Of a stretch of 64,000 nucleotides of DNA, positions 50,293 through 61,066 are shown piece after piece. The position numbers and the translations under genes are program-made. This DNA comes from Metallosphaera hakonensis JCM 8857 = DSM 7519. GTDB taxonomy: Archaea > Thermoproteota > Thermoprotei_A > Sulfolobales > Sulfolobaceae. The notes beneath the pieces are model-generated. The model was not told the DNA's origin, ran no database searches, and was given only the letters and a program-made list of their open reading frames with translations. How positions within the stretch are numbered: the first letter of the stretch is position 1; each line of letters opens with the position of its first letter. The stretch spans positions 1,798,001-1,862,000 of the forward strand of contig NZ_CP029287.2 of NCBI RefSeq assembly GCF_003201675.2. Reading direction: 5' to 3'.

Positions 50293-50779
50293 TATAATAC
50301 TTCGTATCAAACTTGAATGGGTTGTACTAGTCCCTATTACAAGTTTCATTTGTATTAAGGAGATGTTTAAAATGAGGTTATTCTACATTCCTAGGGATTG
50401 TATTGATAATGGGTGAAAATGAGGTTATATCGTGAAGGTGAACATAAAGAATCTTAGGTTTAACCCCACGATTAGATGAGAACAGCCTATTATACTTCGT
50501 CAGACTTTAAAGGGCAAGGCAATCTCATTCAGTATTGACGTCCAGGGTTCGCCGCACCTCCTCACGCTGTACACGAGGTCATTCGCTCTCCTGGATATGG
50601 AGCGCAGGAACCTCTTCGCGTCCCACGTTAAGGTCTCGATGTCTGTGTAGATCTTCGAGTAGAGCTTTTTCTTGAGGATCGCCCAAGGTCCCTCAGCTGG
50701 GCTTTTGTCTGGGGAGTAGGGAGGTAGGTAAACGATCTCCACGCCCTTCTCCTCAAGGAACTCCCTCACTCGATTACCG

Positions 50780-50789
50780 TGAATTCTGG
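50780..50789. repeat. 10-bp target duplication of the MITE (TGAATTCTGG), left
   Basis: TGAATTCTGG occurs exactly at 50780-50789 and 50860-50869, on both sides of the 70-bp insertion. Confidence 0.85.
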
Positions 50790-50859
50790 GGGCTACCGGG
50801 TACAGTTGTGTATTTTACCTGAAAATGACGTTTCTTACACATCTATACATGGTAGCCTC
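50790..50859. mobile_element. 70-bp IS256-related MITE, reference copy
   Basis: Limits are proven by the interrupted transposase. The left end is GGGCTACCGGGTACAGTTGT, the right end reversed is GAGGCTACCATGTATAGATG. These match the two ends of the IS256-like elements at 5306-6613 and 29954-31268 (GGGGCTACCGGGTATAGATG and GGGGCTACCAGTTATAGTTG). It has no coding capacity. Confidence 0.9.
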
Positions 50860-50869
50860 TGAATTCTGG
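50860..50869. repeat. 10-bp target duplication of the MITE, right
   Basis: Exact copy of TGAATTCTGG at 50780-50789. Confidence 0.85.
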
Positions 50870-51649
50870 CGTTGTCCATCACTATCACGAACTTCTCGTC
50901 CTTTATGACCTTGCTCAAGTAGAGTATGATGTCTTCGGAGTTCAGTGAGGGCTTCTTGTACATGGAGTAGGTGAAGGCCATCCCTTCCTTACCAATGGTT
51001 ATCCCTCCAGCGACCGCGAACCTCTTGGGGTTGACCTTCACTCCTCCAATCCTCATCCAACCCTTGCCCTTGTTTACTGGGGACACGTAAGACTCGTCGA
51101 AGACGTGGACCTTATACCCTTCACCTATTTTTTTTAAAAGCTTCTCCCCTTGTTCCTCGACCCATCGCTCCACGGTCCCCTCATCCCTCACGTAGGTCCT
51201 CTTTCCCTTCTTGTACTTGAAACCCAACTTATTGAGGACCGGTCCCAAACTCCTGGGGTTGTACTTCACCCCGAACTCCCTCTCAATCACGTAAGCTACG
51301 AGCTTCAAGGTCCAGAAGTCGTAGTTCAACCCCGAATCCCTTGGGCTCTTCTCCAAGATCCGGACTAACTTCTCCTGGTCCTGATCCTTAATCTTCGTGG
51401 ATCCCTTCCTCGGTTTCGCGCTCAAATCCTCCCTCCTCAACCACTTGTACACCGTGAAGACCGACACGTCGTACTTCCTCGCCACCTGCTCTTTGCTCAT
51501 CCCGTTACTCACGTCTTTCACCGCGTTAATCCTCCTCTCCTCCTCCTGCTCCTTGTTAAGCCTTACTCCGTGCATTCTGGACTTGGGCATAATACACTAG
51601 TATTACTCATGAAATATAAATCTTGCCCTTCAAGGTCTGACGAAGTATA

Positions 51650-55289: not shown

Positions 55290-55425
55290 TAGTCACTAGT
55301 AATTCCATAAAATTCTTAACCATTTGGATAGGGTAAAATACGAGATGATAAGACAAAAACTTGCTGGAAATACTAACGATCTGCAGTCCAACTACAGATA
55401 GTATAGTGGAACACTAGCGTTTCCG
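55290..55425. repeat. Palindromic repeat elements (compound)
   Basis: CACTAGTAATTCCATAAAAT ... ACTTGCTGGAAATACTAACG, then a further half-unit GGAACACTAGCGTTTCCGAG aatttctta. Half-sites belong to the same family as 2738 and 43910. Confidence 0.55.
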
Positions 55426-55497: not shown

Positions 55498-55582
55498 TAA
55501 ATTACGCTAGTGATTCCAATAAGTATTTATCCTAAAAGTCCCTAATCCTACGCCAAGAACTTATCAGAAACGCTAGCGTCTA
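55498..55582. repeat. Palindromic repeat element, best-preserved copy
   Basis: Left ACGCTAGTGATTCCAATAAG ta, right reversed ACGCTAGCGTTTCTGATAAG tt: about 20 bp of inverted repeat around a 35-bp centre (TATCCTAAAAGTCCCTAATC ctacgcc). Confidence 0.7.
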
Positions 55583-55682: not shown

Positions 55683-55692
55683 GTATATAGTG
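55683..55692 (+). promoter_or_regulatory. TATA box of the giant two-P-loop gene
   Basis: GTATATAGTG lies about 24 bp before ATG 55710, so transcription should begin at or within a base or two of the start codon (leaderless). Confidence 0.5.
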
Positions 55693-55709: not shown

Positions 55710-58700
55710 ATGCAATTCATTGATAAAATAAGTATGATTCTCTTTGATATATCAGCTGCGTATAGAGACAATTCTACGGAAATAATTGGCCCTCCCAGAT
55801 CAGGGAAGTCCACCTTCCTAACTTATTGTGATAAATTCCCCTCGTGTAGGCAGGCTTTTCCGGAGTGCCTTAGTAAAAATTGCAGTGATAAGGAAAAGTC
55901 TCTCCAGGCCACACAGGAAGAAAGTTTACTTAAACAGGGAGAAGAAAGTTTACTTAAAAGACTCATTAATTCTTTTAATTTTATAAAACGGCGACCCTTC
56001 GAGGACAAGCCGAATTTTTATCTAGATGAAGTTCAAGGGGCACTGGTAGTCGATCAACTCCTGGATTGCCTCAATGGAGAATGCGGCGCCCTAACGACTA
56101 CGGATGGAAAGAAAGTAACAGGAGACCTACTAATAGGTTCCCTCGAGAACATCTATAAAGACGAGACGGGGCTAGATTTACCCAACCTTTACCAACTACG
56201 TGACCTCGACAAAGAGAGAGTAAAGGAGGACGTACTTCTCTACTCTACAGTTAACTGGCACGGGATAAAGTACGTAAATCCTAGACTGATCCTATTGAGC
56301 TTAGCTCACGCGACTCATGACGCCAATTACAGAGACAAACTGAGGGAACATATGCTTTTCTCGAAAAAGTTCCTCTCAGCTCTAGGCTTAGGGGCCATCT
56401 TCACGGAATCGCTCTTCACCTCTGGAGAGGAGATCGGACTAGACTCAACGTACAGGATTTCCAAGGATATAGTTCCCTCCGTTCTCACCTTCCTTGGGGG
56501 AAAGTTATTACATCTTGGCGGAGTAATTTCCACCATAGTTAGTGGGGGATCAACAATAGCGTTTCTACTCCCTGTGGTACTACTCCTATCGTTCTTTGAG
56601 AGGAGAAAAGAAAAGGAGGAATTTACAGAAAATCTTATAGAATTAATTGAGAGATGGAAAAAATTACCGAAAGAAATGAGAGAGGTCATAGGAATAGGTA
56701 TAGACGATAAGCTGGGACTTCCCCCTGGAACAGCTAAGGGCATCCTGGATGGGCTGTCTGGAGAAAAACCAGAAAAACTCAAGGAGGAGCTAAATCAAGT
56801 TACTCAGCAAATATCCCAGGAAATTGAGGCCTTGCGTAATGAGATAAAGACGGTATTTGAGGTTCTTCAGAGCTTACAGCAGAGTTTCGCCTCTCCCCTT
56901 AACCCCGAGTCCCTAGCGGAATACTATGGAGTAAGCCCTGAGAAGATATTTGACATTAAGTATGAGGTGAACTCATTAAGAGGAGAACGATACACAACCA
57001 ACGCCAAGGAGATTTCGGAAGACATTATGAAATATTTAAACGGAGAGGGAGGACTCAAGTACAATTTCATGATAATAAGCGGAGATCCGGGCGTAGGTAA
57101 ATCGTGGCTAGGATACGAGGTGGCCAAGGAGTTAATTGGGAAGGCGCAGGTGTTCCAAGTTAACTCTACCAAACTAGATCCTGGGGTATTCTCACTTTTA
57201 ACAAGTTTACGTAATGTCAACACAAACACACCGTTGATTTTCCTTATTGATGACAAGTACCTGGGCCCAGAGCAGGGGAAGATCAGCCTGGACAGACTTA
57301 CCGATCTGATCCTCTCCTTCAAGGAAACTCACATAAAGGCCTTCCTGCTAATAACCATGAGGAGGAATCGCCTACAACTGATCAAGGAAGAACTGAGGGA
57401 TCTTGACCTAAAGGATGCGATAATGGATATATCCCCGACTCAAGAGTCCTTAAAGGAGTTAGTGAGGGCCAGATTGAAGAGATTACAAGACAAAATTGGA
57501 GTCCAACTGGAGGACAAATTGATCAGGATGGGGAAGACCCCGCTACTTATTGGCCTCCTCATGGACTTGCTAGAGACGTGTGGAGACGCGGAATGCGTTG
57601 AGGAAAAGGTAAACTCCTTCTCGGAGGGCGTGGGAGACGTAAAGAGAACTATGGCTAACATGTTATTAAGCGAGTTCCATTATTGCTCCACCTACAGTGA
57701 AGATTGCGTAAGTAATGAAAACAAATTTGACGTACTCAAGTTCGTTCTACTTAAGGTAGCTAGTGAGGGGATCCCGGGAATTACTTTGTTGAAAATCTAC
57801 AATGAATATGCGGGGCTCTGGAAAATCGATCAACAACCTTTGACAATAGGTTCGGTCACTGACCTTCTAAGATTCCGAGGCTCGGCCAAAGATAAGATCA
57901 ATGGGGTGATCAATCACATTGGATTTTTCAGGATAGATGAATCTCTATTTGTTGAACCTTTTCATGAAGTGATGAGGGACACTATCGACATGATTTTGCA
58001 GGAAATAGAGAAGAGGAACAAGGAACTTTACAAGGACCTGAGAGAGGAAATCGAGGAGATCAGAAGAAAGTCCATAGAAAACTCGATTGAAACTATAGAG
58101 GAGACTCTGAAGAAAAGGATCCTCGCGAGGAATTACGATATCGTTTTCTCGACCTTGAGATACCTGTTTAGAATGAGAAGATACATGGATCAGAGCATTG
58201 AGAAGGTTCGGCAAATCCTGAAGGAGAAAGTTGATGGGAGAAGCCTTCTTCAAACCTTACTTGATGTAGCCAAGGAGCCCCTGGATTACATTACCCTAGG
58301 TAGTTTCGGCGACGAGTGTCCGGACAACTCACCGGAGATCTACGCTGAGGCAATGCTAACTAGGGAGATTGGGAGCAGGGAGGCAATCAAGTGCGCCATA
58401 ATGTTACTCAAGAGCGAGGGTCCCAGAAGGTTCTTGGGTGCAACCACCTTAAGGCGATTATCCTTCAAGGATCCCAGCTCGCTTCTGGAATTCCTACCTG
58501 ATATCGAGAAATCGATATCCCAGGATGACGCAAGTTGGTGGGTACTGGACGCATTGAAGAACCTAGGAGGAGATTACCATCTCTCGAACGAGGCCAAAAA
58601 GAAGTTGCTAGACATGCTCTCCCTCAGTCCTGCGGATCAAGGAAAAGTGAAAGATGAAGCTAACTTCTCCTTAGATATCAAGATGAAGATCGTGGAGTTG

Positions 58701-60668
58701 CTGTCTTTGCACGAGGACAGCGAGATAGATGAATACTTCTTGAGACAATTTAAAGAAGGGAATAGAGTCCTGGCAGCTAGATATTTTCGCTCAACCAAGA
58801 AAATCAAGGACGAGATGGACGTGATCAACGGTATAATTTCCATGTTCCAGGACCCCGAATCAAGGGATGAAGCCTTAGGATTACTCCTGAAGATCGTGGA
58901 GTTAGATACGGATATGGTGAGGGAGAACCTGGAGAGATTGGTGAAAGTTCTAAACGTAGGAGATGAATACGTGCTCTCAGCAGGAATGTCTTACCCGTTG
59001 ATGAGGTTCATCAGGGCCTTAGTAGAGAGCAAGTTTCCCTCTACGCTCTTTGAGCAATGGCTTGAATCCAAGGAAAAGGAGAAGGTTCTCGTGGGAAGTA
59101 AGTTCCTCTTTGATATGGCAGAGTTGAGACCCAACAAGGACCTGCTGGAACTCATGCTCAAGTTCTCAGGCAGGGAATTTGATGACCATTACGTGAAGTC
59201 AAACATCTTCAGTTCCTTGGTGGTTCTAGCGACCTCATTGTCACTCAGCGAGAAAGAGAGGAAGGAGATCGTAGACGTCCTGAGGGGAAAATTGGAGTAT
59301 ACAACCTACTTCCTTCCTAGACTAGCACAAAGGAATCCAGGGTTCGCAAAGGAATTGAGAGAGGATGTGAGGAAAATGATAGGCCAGGAGAGTTTCAGGG
59401 AAAGAGTATTGGACTTCTTCGCCTACCTTAAGGACGAACAAATACTCAACGAATTGAAAGATCCAGAGCCTCGGGCGTATTTTCTTTCTAGACTATTGCT
59501 AACTTATCCTGAAGTGGGGATGAAGTACAGTGACGTTGCTTGTGACCTATTGGAGAACGAAAGGGGCGAAGGTTACGCAATGGAATACATGATTGAGTTA
59601 GCTAAGCTTAATCCAATGTTGGCTATGAAGTATTATCCAAGGGTCCTAAACAGGAAAGATCACGAGGAGTTCTTTAAAATTTTGGGAATAGGCCTAGCTA
59701 AACGGGAACAGGAGTCTGAGATGTTAGTGAGGGGAATTGAGAAGTCTACCACAGCACTATCTTATTTTTTAATCGGCTTAGCTCGTGGGGATCCTGATTT
59801 GGCATGGAAGTTCAGGGAGATAGCGGTGAAGGTTGCAAACGACGAAACGGGTCACGAGCCAAGTGATGTCCTGCGATATTTCTTCTTTATTGGCCTCGCT
59901 TTACCCGAGAAGATAGAAGAAATTAGATCGTGGAGACATGGAAATGTAGCGAGGAGACTAGCGTATGCTAGTTTCCTAGAGGGTGCGGTGTTTAGCGATC
60001 CCCACAGAGTTTTACTTGAGGAATTTAACTTGGAAGATGAAAAGGGAGTAAAGGAGATCCTGCAAAGGGTTTTGGCTATACTCGCCTCAATCTATCCAGG
60101 TTACAAATTTGAATCGTCAATGGCTTACTCTTCCTCTACAATGAAAGTTACTGGGAAGGCCTACGGCTTTGCACTTTTAAACTCCTCTTCTCCTACCTCC
60201 AATGTGACCGTAGTAACTGACGCTAGGGGCCCCCATCTAATCGTAATTACTGACGCAAGTGTGGATCTGGGCGCAGCAGGGATGTTTAGGGTACCACCAG
60301 GGAGCAAAATCTACTACATCGAAGGATCGACCTTCACTATCCCACTTAACTTGGTTACGGATTGTCTAATCGTTATCTCGGAGAATAGACTAAATTTCAG
60401 TGTCATTATAGATAAGACTCCCTCAAAGGTTAAGGAGAGGATCTTGGGCCCTTGTAGTCTAACCCTAGAACAGAAAATCGAGTGGGGAAACAAAGACGAA
60501 GCTAAACAAGGAGAAGCTAGACTAACTGGGATTACATGCACTTCCTTTGATCATGCCCTTGAAGATGACAACTTCTGGACACTTACGAGAGCATGTACCT
60601 GCGATGGTATTATAAAGTGTATGAACTGCGTTGCTAACCACGAATATGTAAGAATCTCGGGAATTTAA
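55710..60668 (+). CDS. Giant two-P-loop protein (1,652 residues), STAND-like, unknown
   Basis: Domains in order: Walker A-like GPPRSGKST (27-35) followed by four Cys in 19 residues (C40, C46, C53, C58); a hydrophobic hairpin at about 260-297 (VISTIVSGGSTIAFLLPVVL); a coiled coil at about 355-400 (LNQVTQQISQEIEALRNEIK); a second P-loop GDPGVGKS (458-465) with Walker B FLIDDKYLG (D514, D515) and a sensor-like strand LLITMRRNR; a long helical region (~600-1480) with HEAT-like pairs; a strand-rich segment (~1490-1600); and a C-terminal CxCx5CxxC (ACTCDGIIKCMNC). The second NTPase followed by helical repeats resembles STAND signalling ATPases. It is a single unbroken frame next to the S-layer genes. 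No family recognised. Confidence 0.8.
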   Translation: MQFIDKISMILFDISAAYRDNSTEIIGPPRSGKSTFLTYCDKFPSCRQAFPECLSKNCSDKEKSLQATQEESLLKQGEESLLKRLINSFNFIKRRPFEDKPNFYLDEVQGALVVDQLLDCLNGECGALTTTDGKKVTGDLLIGSLENIYKDETGLDLPNLYQLRDLDKERVKEDVLLYSTVNWHGIKYVNPRLILLSLAHATHDANYRDKLREHMLFSKKFLSALGLGAIFTESLFTSGEEIGLDSTYRISKDIVPSVLTFLGGKLLHLGGVISTIVSGGSTIAFLLPVVLLLSFFERRKEKEEFTENLIELIERWKKLPKEMREVIGIGIDDKLGLPPGTAKGILDGLSGEKPEKLKEELNQVTQQISQEIEALRNEIKTVFEVLQSLQQSFASPLNPESLAEYYGVSPEKIFDIKYEVNSLRGERYTTNAKEISEDIMKYLNGEGGLKYNFMIISGDPGVGKSWLGYEVAKELIGKAQVFQVNSTKLDPGVFSLLTSLRNVNTNTPLIFLIDDKYLGPEQGKISLDRLTDLILSFKETHIKAFLLITMRRNRLQLIKEELRDLDLKDAIMDISPTQESLKELVRARLKRLQDKIGVQLEDKLIRMGKTPLLIGLLMDLLETCGDAECVEEKVNSFSEGVGDVKRTMANMLLSEFHYCSTYSEDCVSNENKFDVLKFVLLKVASEGIPGITLLKIYNEYAGLWKIDQQPLTIGSVTDLLRFRGSAKDKINGVINHIGFFRIDESLFVEPFHEVMRDTIDMILQEIEKRNKELYKDLREEIEEIRRKSIENSIETIEETLKKRILARNYDIVFSTLRYLFRMRRYMDQSIEKVRQILKEKVDGRSLLQTLLDVAKEPLDYITLGSFGDECPDNSPEIYAEAMLTREIGSREAIKCAIMLLKSEGPRRFLGATTLRRLSFKDPSSLLEFLPDIEKSISQDDASWWVLDALKNLGGDYHLSNEAKKKLLDMLSLSPADQGKVKDEANFSLDIKMKIVELLSLHEDSEIDEYFLRQFKEGNRVLAARYFRSTKKIKDEMDVINGIISMFQDPESRDEALGLLLKIVELDTDMVRENLERLVKVLNVGDEYVLSAGMSYPLMRFIRALVESKFPSTLFEQWLESKEKEKVLVGSKFLFDMAELRPNKDLLELMLKFSGREFDDHYVKSNIFSSLVVLATSLSLSEKERKEIVDVLRGKLEYTTYFLPRLAQRNPGFAKELREDVRKMIGQESFRERVLDFFAYLKDEQILNELKDPEPRAYFLSRLLLTYPEVGMKYSDVACDLLENERGEGYAMEYMIELAKLNPMLAMKYYPRVLNRKDHEEFFKILGIGLAKREQESEMLVRGIEKSTTALSYFLIGLARGDPDLAWKFREIAVKVANDETGHEPSDVLRYFFFIGLALPEKIEEIRSWRHGNVARRLAYASFLEGAVFSDPHRVLLEEFNLEDEKGVKEILQRVLAILASIYPGYKFESSMAYSSSTMKVTGKAYGFALLNSSSPTSNVTVVTDARGPHLIVITDASVDLGAAGMFRVPPGSKIYYIEGSTFTIPLNLVTDCLIVISENRLNFSVIIDKTPSKVKERILGPCSLTLEQKIEWGNKDEAKQGEARLTGITCTSFDHALEDDNFWTLTRACTCDGIIKCMNCVANHEYVRISGI

Positions 60669-61066
60669 TACATAATAGGTTAATATTGGTAAACTTAATC
60701 TAATCAAGTTTTAGATTGAAAGCTCTTCATCGTAATGACGGAACTATCTAATAACGGTAGGGTGATTCAAGGGTTCATTAAGGTTTCATTTGTTTTACTA
60801 GACAAGATTGGAATAGTTGATCCTATAATTCGAGGGTAAAGAGTGGGAAGAAGTGAGAAGTAATATCATGGATGTCTTAGTGATATGACAGTGTCCAGAA
60901 TGCAAATATTTCGACAAAAATATTGATATAATAACAAGGATCGTTCTATCCTTTTTTAATTTAGTTAAGATCTACCTAATCTTTAATACTAAAATCTTCA
61001 ATACTAAAGTTCATCTTTTTAAAACAATACCAATCTCCTTAAACGATAAAATACTCTATACAAGAC
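60669..61066. other. AT-rich intergenic region between convergent genes
   Basis: No gene or known repeat. A T-run (CCTTTTTTAA, about 60948-60957) could end the giant gene's transcript. Confidence 0.4.

Follow-up and report, generated by a model that had tools for sequence, protein, structure and literature searches.

In the window (the whole 64,000-nucleotide stretch of Metallosphaera hakonensis DNA that was analyzed), a single gene encodes a protein of 1,652 residues (Table 1). As claimed in the preliminary description, the frame is open without interruption. It has the codon pattern of a selected protein. The one close relative is a copy of residues 806–1646 in a congener (G004; G and L numbers are our designations for genomes and loci), which is 55–56% identical. 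This copy is broken, in that it lacks the first ~805 residues, adjoins a transposase gene at the junction, and contains one frame break. Since the two genes differ at 32, 22, and 59% of the first, second, and third codon positions, respectively, the protein was under purifying selection in the past, and the comparison indicates that the ORF is real and more than a chance frame. By inspection of the sequence, the spacing of an upstream TATATA element fits a leaderless archaeal promoter at the ATG. Searches of the locus for Rfam RNAs and tRNAs yielded no match.

Table 1. Features of the gene, its product, and its flanks. Positions are those of the window.
Feature	Positions	Strand	Residues	Basis or remark
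Dispersed short repeat flanking the gene	55293..55389			best other copies in the genome 90-93% identical
Second dispersed short repeat, upstream of the gene	55504..55579			>20 copies
TATATA	55684..55689	+		first base 26 bp 5' of ATG; sequence inspection only
Predicted tandem-NTPase STAND protein, whole gene	55710..60668	+	1,652 aa	frame, Pfam, family, codon comparison
N-terminal P-loop domain, NTPase1	55710..56474	+	1-255	Pfam AAA_14, weak
Walker A 1, GPPRSGKS	55788..55811	+	27-34	sequence, family alignment
Conserved hydrophobic segment (predicted membrane)	56481..56600	+	258-297	Kyte-Doolittle
Coiled-coil linker	56757..56894	+	~350-395	charged heptad-like; helix in single-sequence model
nSTAND3-type NTPase	56997..57569	+	~430-620	Pfam match 450-579
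Walker A 2, GDPGVGKS	57081..57104	+	458-465	inside PF20720 match
Walker B 2, FLIDD	57240..57254	+	511-515	inside PF20720 match
Sensor-1-like TMR	57354..57362	+	549-551	family alignment
GKTP, GxP-like motif	57531..57542	+	608-611	family alignment
HEAT/ARM-like alpha-solenoid, presumed sensor	58197..60119	+	~830-1470	AlphaFold2, Foldseek
Beta-rich C-terminal region (predicted, low confidence)	60192..60539	+	~1495-1610	model
CTCDGIIKCMNC, possible metal site	60594..60629	+	1629-1640	kept in congener copy
Dispersed short repeat, downstream of the gene	60886..60948			23 further copies in the genome

Insertion site

The gene is followed on the other strand by a SlaB homologue (PDB 8qox_B, E 1.4e-30) and preceded by a glycosyltransferase gene. 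Synteny with relatives, proposed as a check in the preliminary description, was informative. The gap between slaB and the glycosyltransferase gene is 145 bp in G003, 384 bp in G004, and 6.0 kb in the window, where the interval contains only the 1,652-residue protein gene, in the opposite orientation. Since slaB and the glycosyltransferase gene are adjacent in the two congeners, the gene is an accessory insertion, absent from this site in both of them, and does not belong to the S-layer unit. slaB is present in all six genomes of the genus; the only other recognizable orthologue of the inserted gene in the genus is the broken G004 copy, which is at another site. The flanks are too diverged between species for exact boundaries of the insertion or a target-site duplication to be recognized.

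The immediate neighbors are S-layer, glycosyltransferase, and transposase genes, with no recognized defense gene among them. The short repeats on both sides each occur some 5 to 24 times in the genome and are possibly MITE-like. A transposase-like gene in two frames (89 and 251 aa; positions 50500–51590, minus strand) is likely a decayed IS630-type element.

Domain architecture

From the N-terminus, a first Walker A motif and a hydrophobic segment precede a coiled coil, which is followed by an nSTAND3 NTPase and then by a HEAT/ARM-like solenoid; a CxCx5CxxC motif is located near the C-terminus. The preliminary description had named most of these (the N-terminal Walker A motif, the coiled coil between the P-loops, the second NTPase module with GDPGVGKS and FLIDD, several hundred residues of helical repeats, and the C-terminal cysteine motif), and all of those named were recovered. 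It had also pointed to an N-terminal cysteine cluster. C40, C47, C53, and C59 are present; however, they are not conserved in the family, and we rejected the cluster as a metal site and gave it no weight. The C-terminal cysteine motif, in contrast, is conserved in the G004 copy.

The nSTAND3 assignment is based on a match to PF20720 (residues 450–579; E 5.6e-8; score 33.1 bits, cut-off 27.2). Several relatives also score above this cut-off. The segment contains a P-loop Walker A motif and a Walker B motif of the hhhhD[D/E] type, as expected in STAND proteins. TMR and GKTP are located at the expected STAND places; they may correspond to the "TxR" sensor-1 position and the GxP-like motif of STAND NTPases, respectively, and most relatives do not conserve them. 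At the position of the N-terminal P-loop, AAA_22 matched above the Pfam cut-off in two relatives. Residues 258–297 form the strongest hydrophobic stretch between both P-loops (19-residue Kyte-Doolittle peak 2.09); this stretch may be the membrane hairpin named in the preliminary description or a single membrane helix.

The superstructure-forming repeats of STAND proteins have a counterpart in the alpha-solenoid, which was predicted over residues ~870–1470 by single-sequence AlphaFold2 at modest confidence (pLDDT 50–76 in the better parts). The best Foldseek matches to this model were HEAT/ARM proteins, such as transportin, CAND1, and importin-beta; since TM-scores were low, only the class of fold was taken from them. 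A HEAT Pfam match was above the cut-off in the relative from G011. The prediction for residues 1–650 was poor (pLDDT 38.7), and the NTPase module is assigned from the sequence. A profile search of solved structures returned generic P-loop matches only. By its Pfam match and sequence features, the protein is classified as a putative STAND NTPase of the nSTAND3 type.

Distribution and variants of the family

We sampled ~31 Sulfolobaceae genomes with a profile built on residues 1 to ~600 and then searched the phylum. At least 23 proteins share the layout of a first P-loop, a hydrophobic segment, a short helical segment, a coiled coil, a second P-loop, and helical repeats. They occur patchily, in a minority of the Sulfolobaceae genomes sampled and in other Thermoproteota. 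Among Sulfolobaceae, intact members were found in G011, G015, G017, and G030, members with a degenerate first P-loop (class B, see below) in G003 and G028, and fragments in G004 and G019. In the phylum search, two more families yielded strong relatives (G285, G314, G237, and G374; G334, G344, G364, and G457), with up to three copies per genome. Many order-level genomes also gave weak first-look matches (E 1e-4 to 1e-3), which were mostly bare P-loops or helices and were excluded. The family alignments detected no relatives in the genome-contig and viral-contig collections scanned, and no family match was found in plasmid and phage records; near relatives may be missing from these collections.

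The hydrophobic segment scored 1.7–2.8 in 17 of the 23 proteins and was weaker or mixed (1.4–1.9) in the other six, which come from two related genera. In four class B proteins, the first P-loop is degenerate (PPGSSRG and similar) and the layout is otherwise kept. Genes of class A (active first P-loop) and class B are 2–8 kb apart at L046 (G015) and L111 (G285). The presence of such neighbors in two distant archaea suggests a paired system. One G015 protein (G015a) is 66% identical to proteins of G344 and G285, which belong to other families of the phylum, and this identity points to horizontal transfer. Swapped ends, patchiness, and transfer together are typical of conflict genes.

Two further observations concern partial or damaged forms. 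At L090 (901–2412, plus strand), a 503-residue protein consists of an N-terminal region followed by the P-loop–hydrophobic–helical module without the STAND part; it adjoins a Cys-rich 213-residue protein. G004 contains a second family member (L049, 6736–9312, minus strand, and upstream) with a frameshift after the Walker A motif GPPRGGKD.

Two relatives, one in G011 (E 3e-18) and one in G457 (E 1e-12), have a SIR2_2 domain (PF13289) at the N-terminus; they belong to different families within the phylum. Both domains retain TTNxD and HG, and that of G011 matches the ThsA NADase. These relatives also retain the first P-loop and the hydrophobic segment. In a tree of the STAND region, the two SIR2 bearers are apart: G457 groups with G334 (95/92) and G011 with the 1,652-residue protein (95/88), a grouping that may be false because both are long branches. 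The 1,652-residue protein has no SIR2 domain, no SIR2 remnant was found upstream of it, and no SIR2_2 gene was found in its genome.

Defense genes near relatives

PADLOC identified known defense genes beside many relatives. The G011 locus has Cmr4 and Cas3 neighbors, the G019 fragment has Cmr1/Cmr4, and the G004 fragment, the nearest orthologue, adjoins a type I-D cas cluster (Cas1/Cas4/Cas6/Cas10d). A Cas4-like neighbor was detected at G030a, SiAgo with Aga1 and Aga2 at G030c, and an AbiL/OLD-like pair near the G003 member. Outside Sulfolobaceae, TmtA, a methyltransferase, and a pAgo-like protein are neighbors in G314. BrxL and a type IIG restriction enzyme are directly upstream on the same strand in G237, which also has a BrxH/HmaA-type helicase and a methyltransferase, and G374 has a methyltransferase. 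For some relatives, the genes nearby include ParA-like or HerA-like ones. A short-Argonaute gene is located beside the STAND gene at three loci in two lineages: L045 (SiAgo/Aga1/Aga2), L114 (pAgo-like), and L119, where the pAgo-like neighbor was assigned by similarity.

Since these neighbors had first been chosen by eye, we performed a control with one family locus and one random 18-kb stretch from each of the same ten genomes; one random stretch that overlapped a family locus was swapped by hand. At E <= 1e-20, the 65 neighbors of the ten family loci matched 86 PADLOC models, including Cas3, Cas8a, CsaX, Csx1, Cas6a, pAgo, Aga1, Aga2, BrxL, RM, and HmaA/B. In contrast, the 131 control proteins matched six generic models (mad3, GlgB, AriA, NsnB, diadenylate cyclase, and PDC-M72A). 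Family loci are enriched for known defense genes over size-matched random stretches; the sample is small (10) and the contrast is large.

Discussion

The nSTAND3 match, the insertion at a site empty in congeners, the patchy distribution, the two SIR2 fusions, and the enrichment of defense genes relative to the control all argue for the STAND-like defense ATPase raised in the preliminary description. Conservation of a housekeeping kind, named there as evidence to the contrary, was looked for and the opposite was found. A general signaling role, also raised there, has no supporting evidence. We consider STAND-type sensing by the 1,652-residue protein to be very likely and a role in defense or conflict to be likely. 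We favor, with moderate confidence, a single-protein, membrane-tethered STAND-type antiviral sensor and effector. Since its family is patchy, has swapped ends, and is repeatedly found next to CRISPR and other antiviral genes, the protein would most likely act as an alarm that shuts down a virus-infected cell.

We propose the following mechanism. The C-terminal HEAT-like solenoid and the Cys-containing end would bind a viral or plasmid protein. By analogy with STAND/Avs biology, binding would lift the autoinhibition of the nSTAND3 NTPase, leading to ATP loading and oligomerization. The coiled coil may then relay this change toward the N-terminus, where the P-loop domain and the membrane segment adjoin. 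In the least certain step, NTP-dependent clustering of membrane segments would perturb the cytoplasmic membrane and abort infection.

Membrane perturbation is favored as the output because the N-terminus consists of a P-loop and a membrane segment and no SIR2_2 gene was found in the genome; we put it forward with some hesitation, as slightly below an even chance. In a protein without SIR2, the likeliest effector would be the N-terminal NTPase/membrane module. The membrane or ATPase effector suggested in the preliminary description appears more plausible now because the P-loop–hydrophobic module is conserved and the 503-residue protein has it in the absence of a STAND part. The main doubt is that the SIR2-bearing relatives keep this module. 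Since the first P-loop is retained alongside SIR2, it may have a regulatory role and not be the effector, and together with the membrane segment may serve as an anchor or gate instead.

An alternative built on this doubt retains the STAND defense sensor and assigns it an output other than the membrane, through a separate effector or none; the present copy would have lost SIR2 and now act as a decoy, titrator, or partner. The grouping with SIR2-bearing G011 is consistent with this alternative, as is the class B layout, which is kept despite a degenerate first P-loop. However, that grouping joins two long branches and may be false, no SIR2 remnant was found upstream and no SIR2_2 gene in the genome, and most members persist in many genomes without SIR2. 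We regard this alternative as rather unlikely. It is improbable that the gene serves mobile elements, in plasmid or virus maintenance or inter-element exclusion, rather than host defense. The cross-family transfer, the dispersed repeats flanking the gene, and the ParA-like or HerA-like genes near some relatives point in that direction, whereas plasmid records, phage records, and viral contigs, from which near relatives may be missing, yielded no match, and many relatives adjoin chromosomal-type CRISPR or RM systems. An envelope function, as an NTPase for S-layer assembly or protein glycosylation, would fit the membrane segment and the position between slaB and the glycosyltransferase gene, but is very improbable given the empty site in G003 and G004, the opposite strand, relatives at unrelated sites beside defense genes, and the occurrence of only one other recognizable orthologue, broken and at another site, among the six genomes of the genus, all of which have slaB.

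Our preferred reading, a membrane-tethered STAND sensor and effector, invites comparison with known systems. The closest well-characterized case is Avs5, which consists of SIR2 (PF13289), nSTAND3, and repeats; once activated, its SIR2 domain hydrolyses NAD+ and thereby protects against jumbo phages (PMC12931631). The 1,652-residue protein similarly combines nSTAND3 (PF20720) with a putative variable N-terminal effector and C-terminal alpha-helical repeats, and two family relatives carry the same SIR2_2 domain. In contrast to Avs5, it lacks SIR2, and in all family members a module of P-loop, hydrophobic segment, and coiled coil precedes the STAND NTPase. PADLOC AVAST models did not match it at E <= 1 or six relatives at E <= 0.01. 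Since SIR2 and AVAST models are absent, it is not a member of Avs5 as judged from sequence, although an Avs5-like mode of action is proposed.

The nSTAND/MNS conflict proteins, as presented in the portions of Kaur et al. covered here (2020, PMC7159879; 2021, PMC8195603), also have a STAND NTPase, swappable N-termini, and superstructure-forming repeats. These portions describe two-gene pairs for nSTAND2, which the class A and class B genes at two family loci resemble, and do not describe the tandem-P-loop membrane layout. We did not find this layout in PADLOC or in the open-licence papers covered here.

In the same hosts, SiAgo/Aga1/Aga2 of Sulfolobus is a short-Argonaute system that acts by way of a membrane effector, and one family member is located beside it. 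Unlike the 1,652-residue protein, it is an RNA/DNA-guided multi-protein system, and no shared domain was found. KAP P-loop NTPases have membrane segments and are linked to phage exclusion. The 1,652-residue protein likewise joins a P-loop NTPase to a predicted membrane segment; however, KAP membrane segments are inside the NTPase, before Walker B, and the KAP Pfam model did not match at E <= 1. A LeoBC or dynamin-like defense protein was rejected since the match (E 7e-4) covers the hydrophobic/coiled-coil stretch only. The PADLOC matches to AbiO, Nhi, LeoBC, and mad8 were rejected as indicators of family because PADLOC defense systems resemble the protein only over short P-loop or coiled-coil stretches.

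Known defense systems were reported in a 2026 survey (7,747 archaeal genomes) to be sparse in Archaea and, save for RM, CRISPR-Cas, and argonautes, lower in Thermoproteota (PMC12988326). A patchy giant STAND family that PADLOC misses, with several copies in some Sulfolobaceae and other Thermoproteota and with CRISPR, Argonaute, BREX-like, and RM genes as neighbors, would partly close this gap. It would also bear on the origin of membrane-acting STAND receptors. More speculatively, these proteins may be "resistosome-like" membrane-embedded archaeal receptors in which the N-terminal NTPase–membrane module kills and SIR2 is occasionally added; we offer this as a tentative idea.

A cousin of ~1,030 residues with tandem P-loops occurs in at least five Sulfolobaceae genomes (L098–L102). 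It has no obvious hydrophobic segment, and its first P-loop is an nSTAND3 match above the cut-off.
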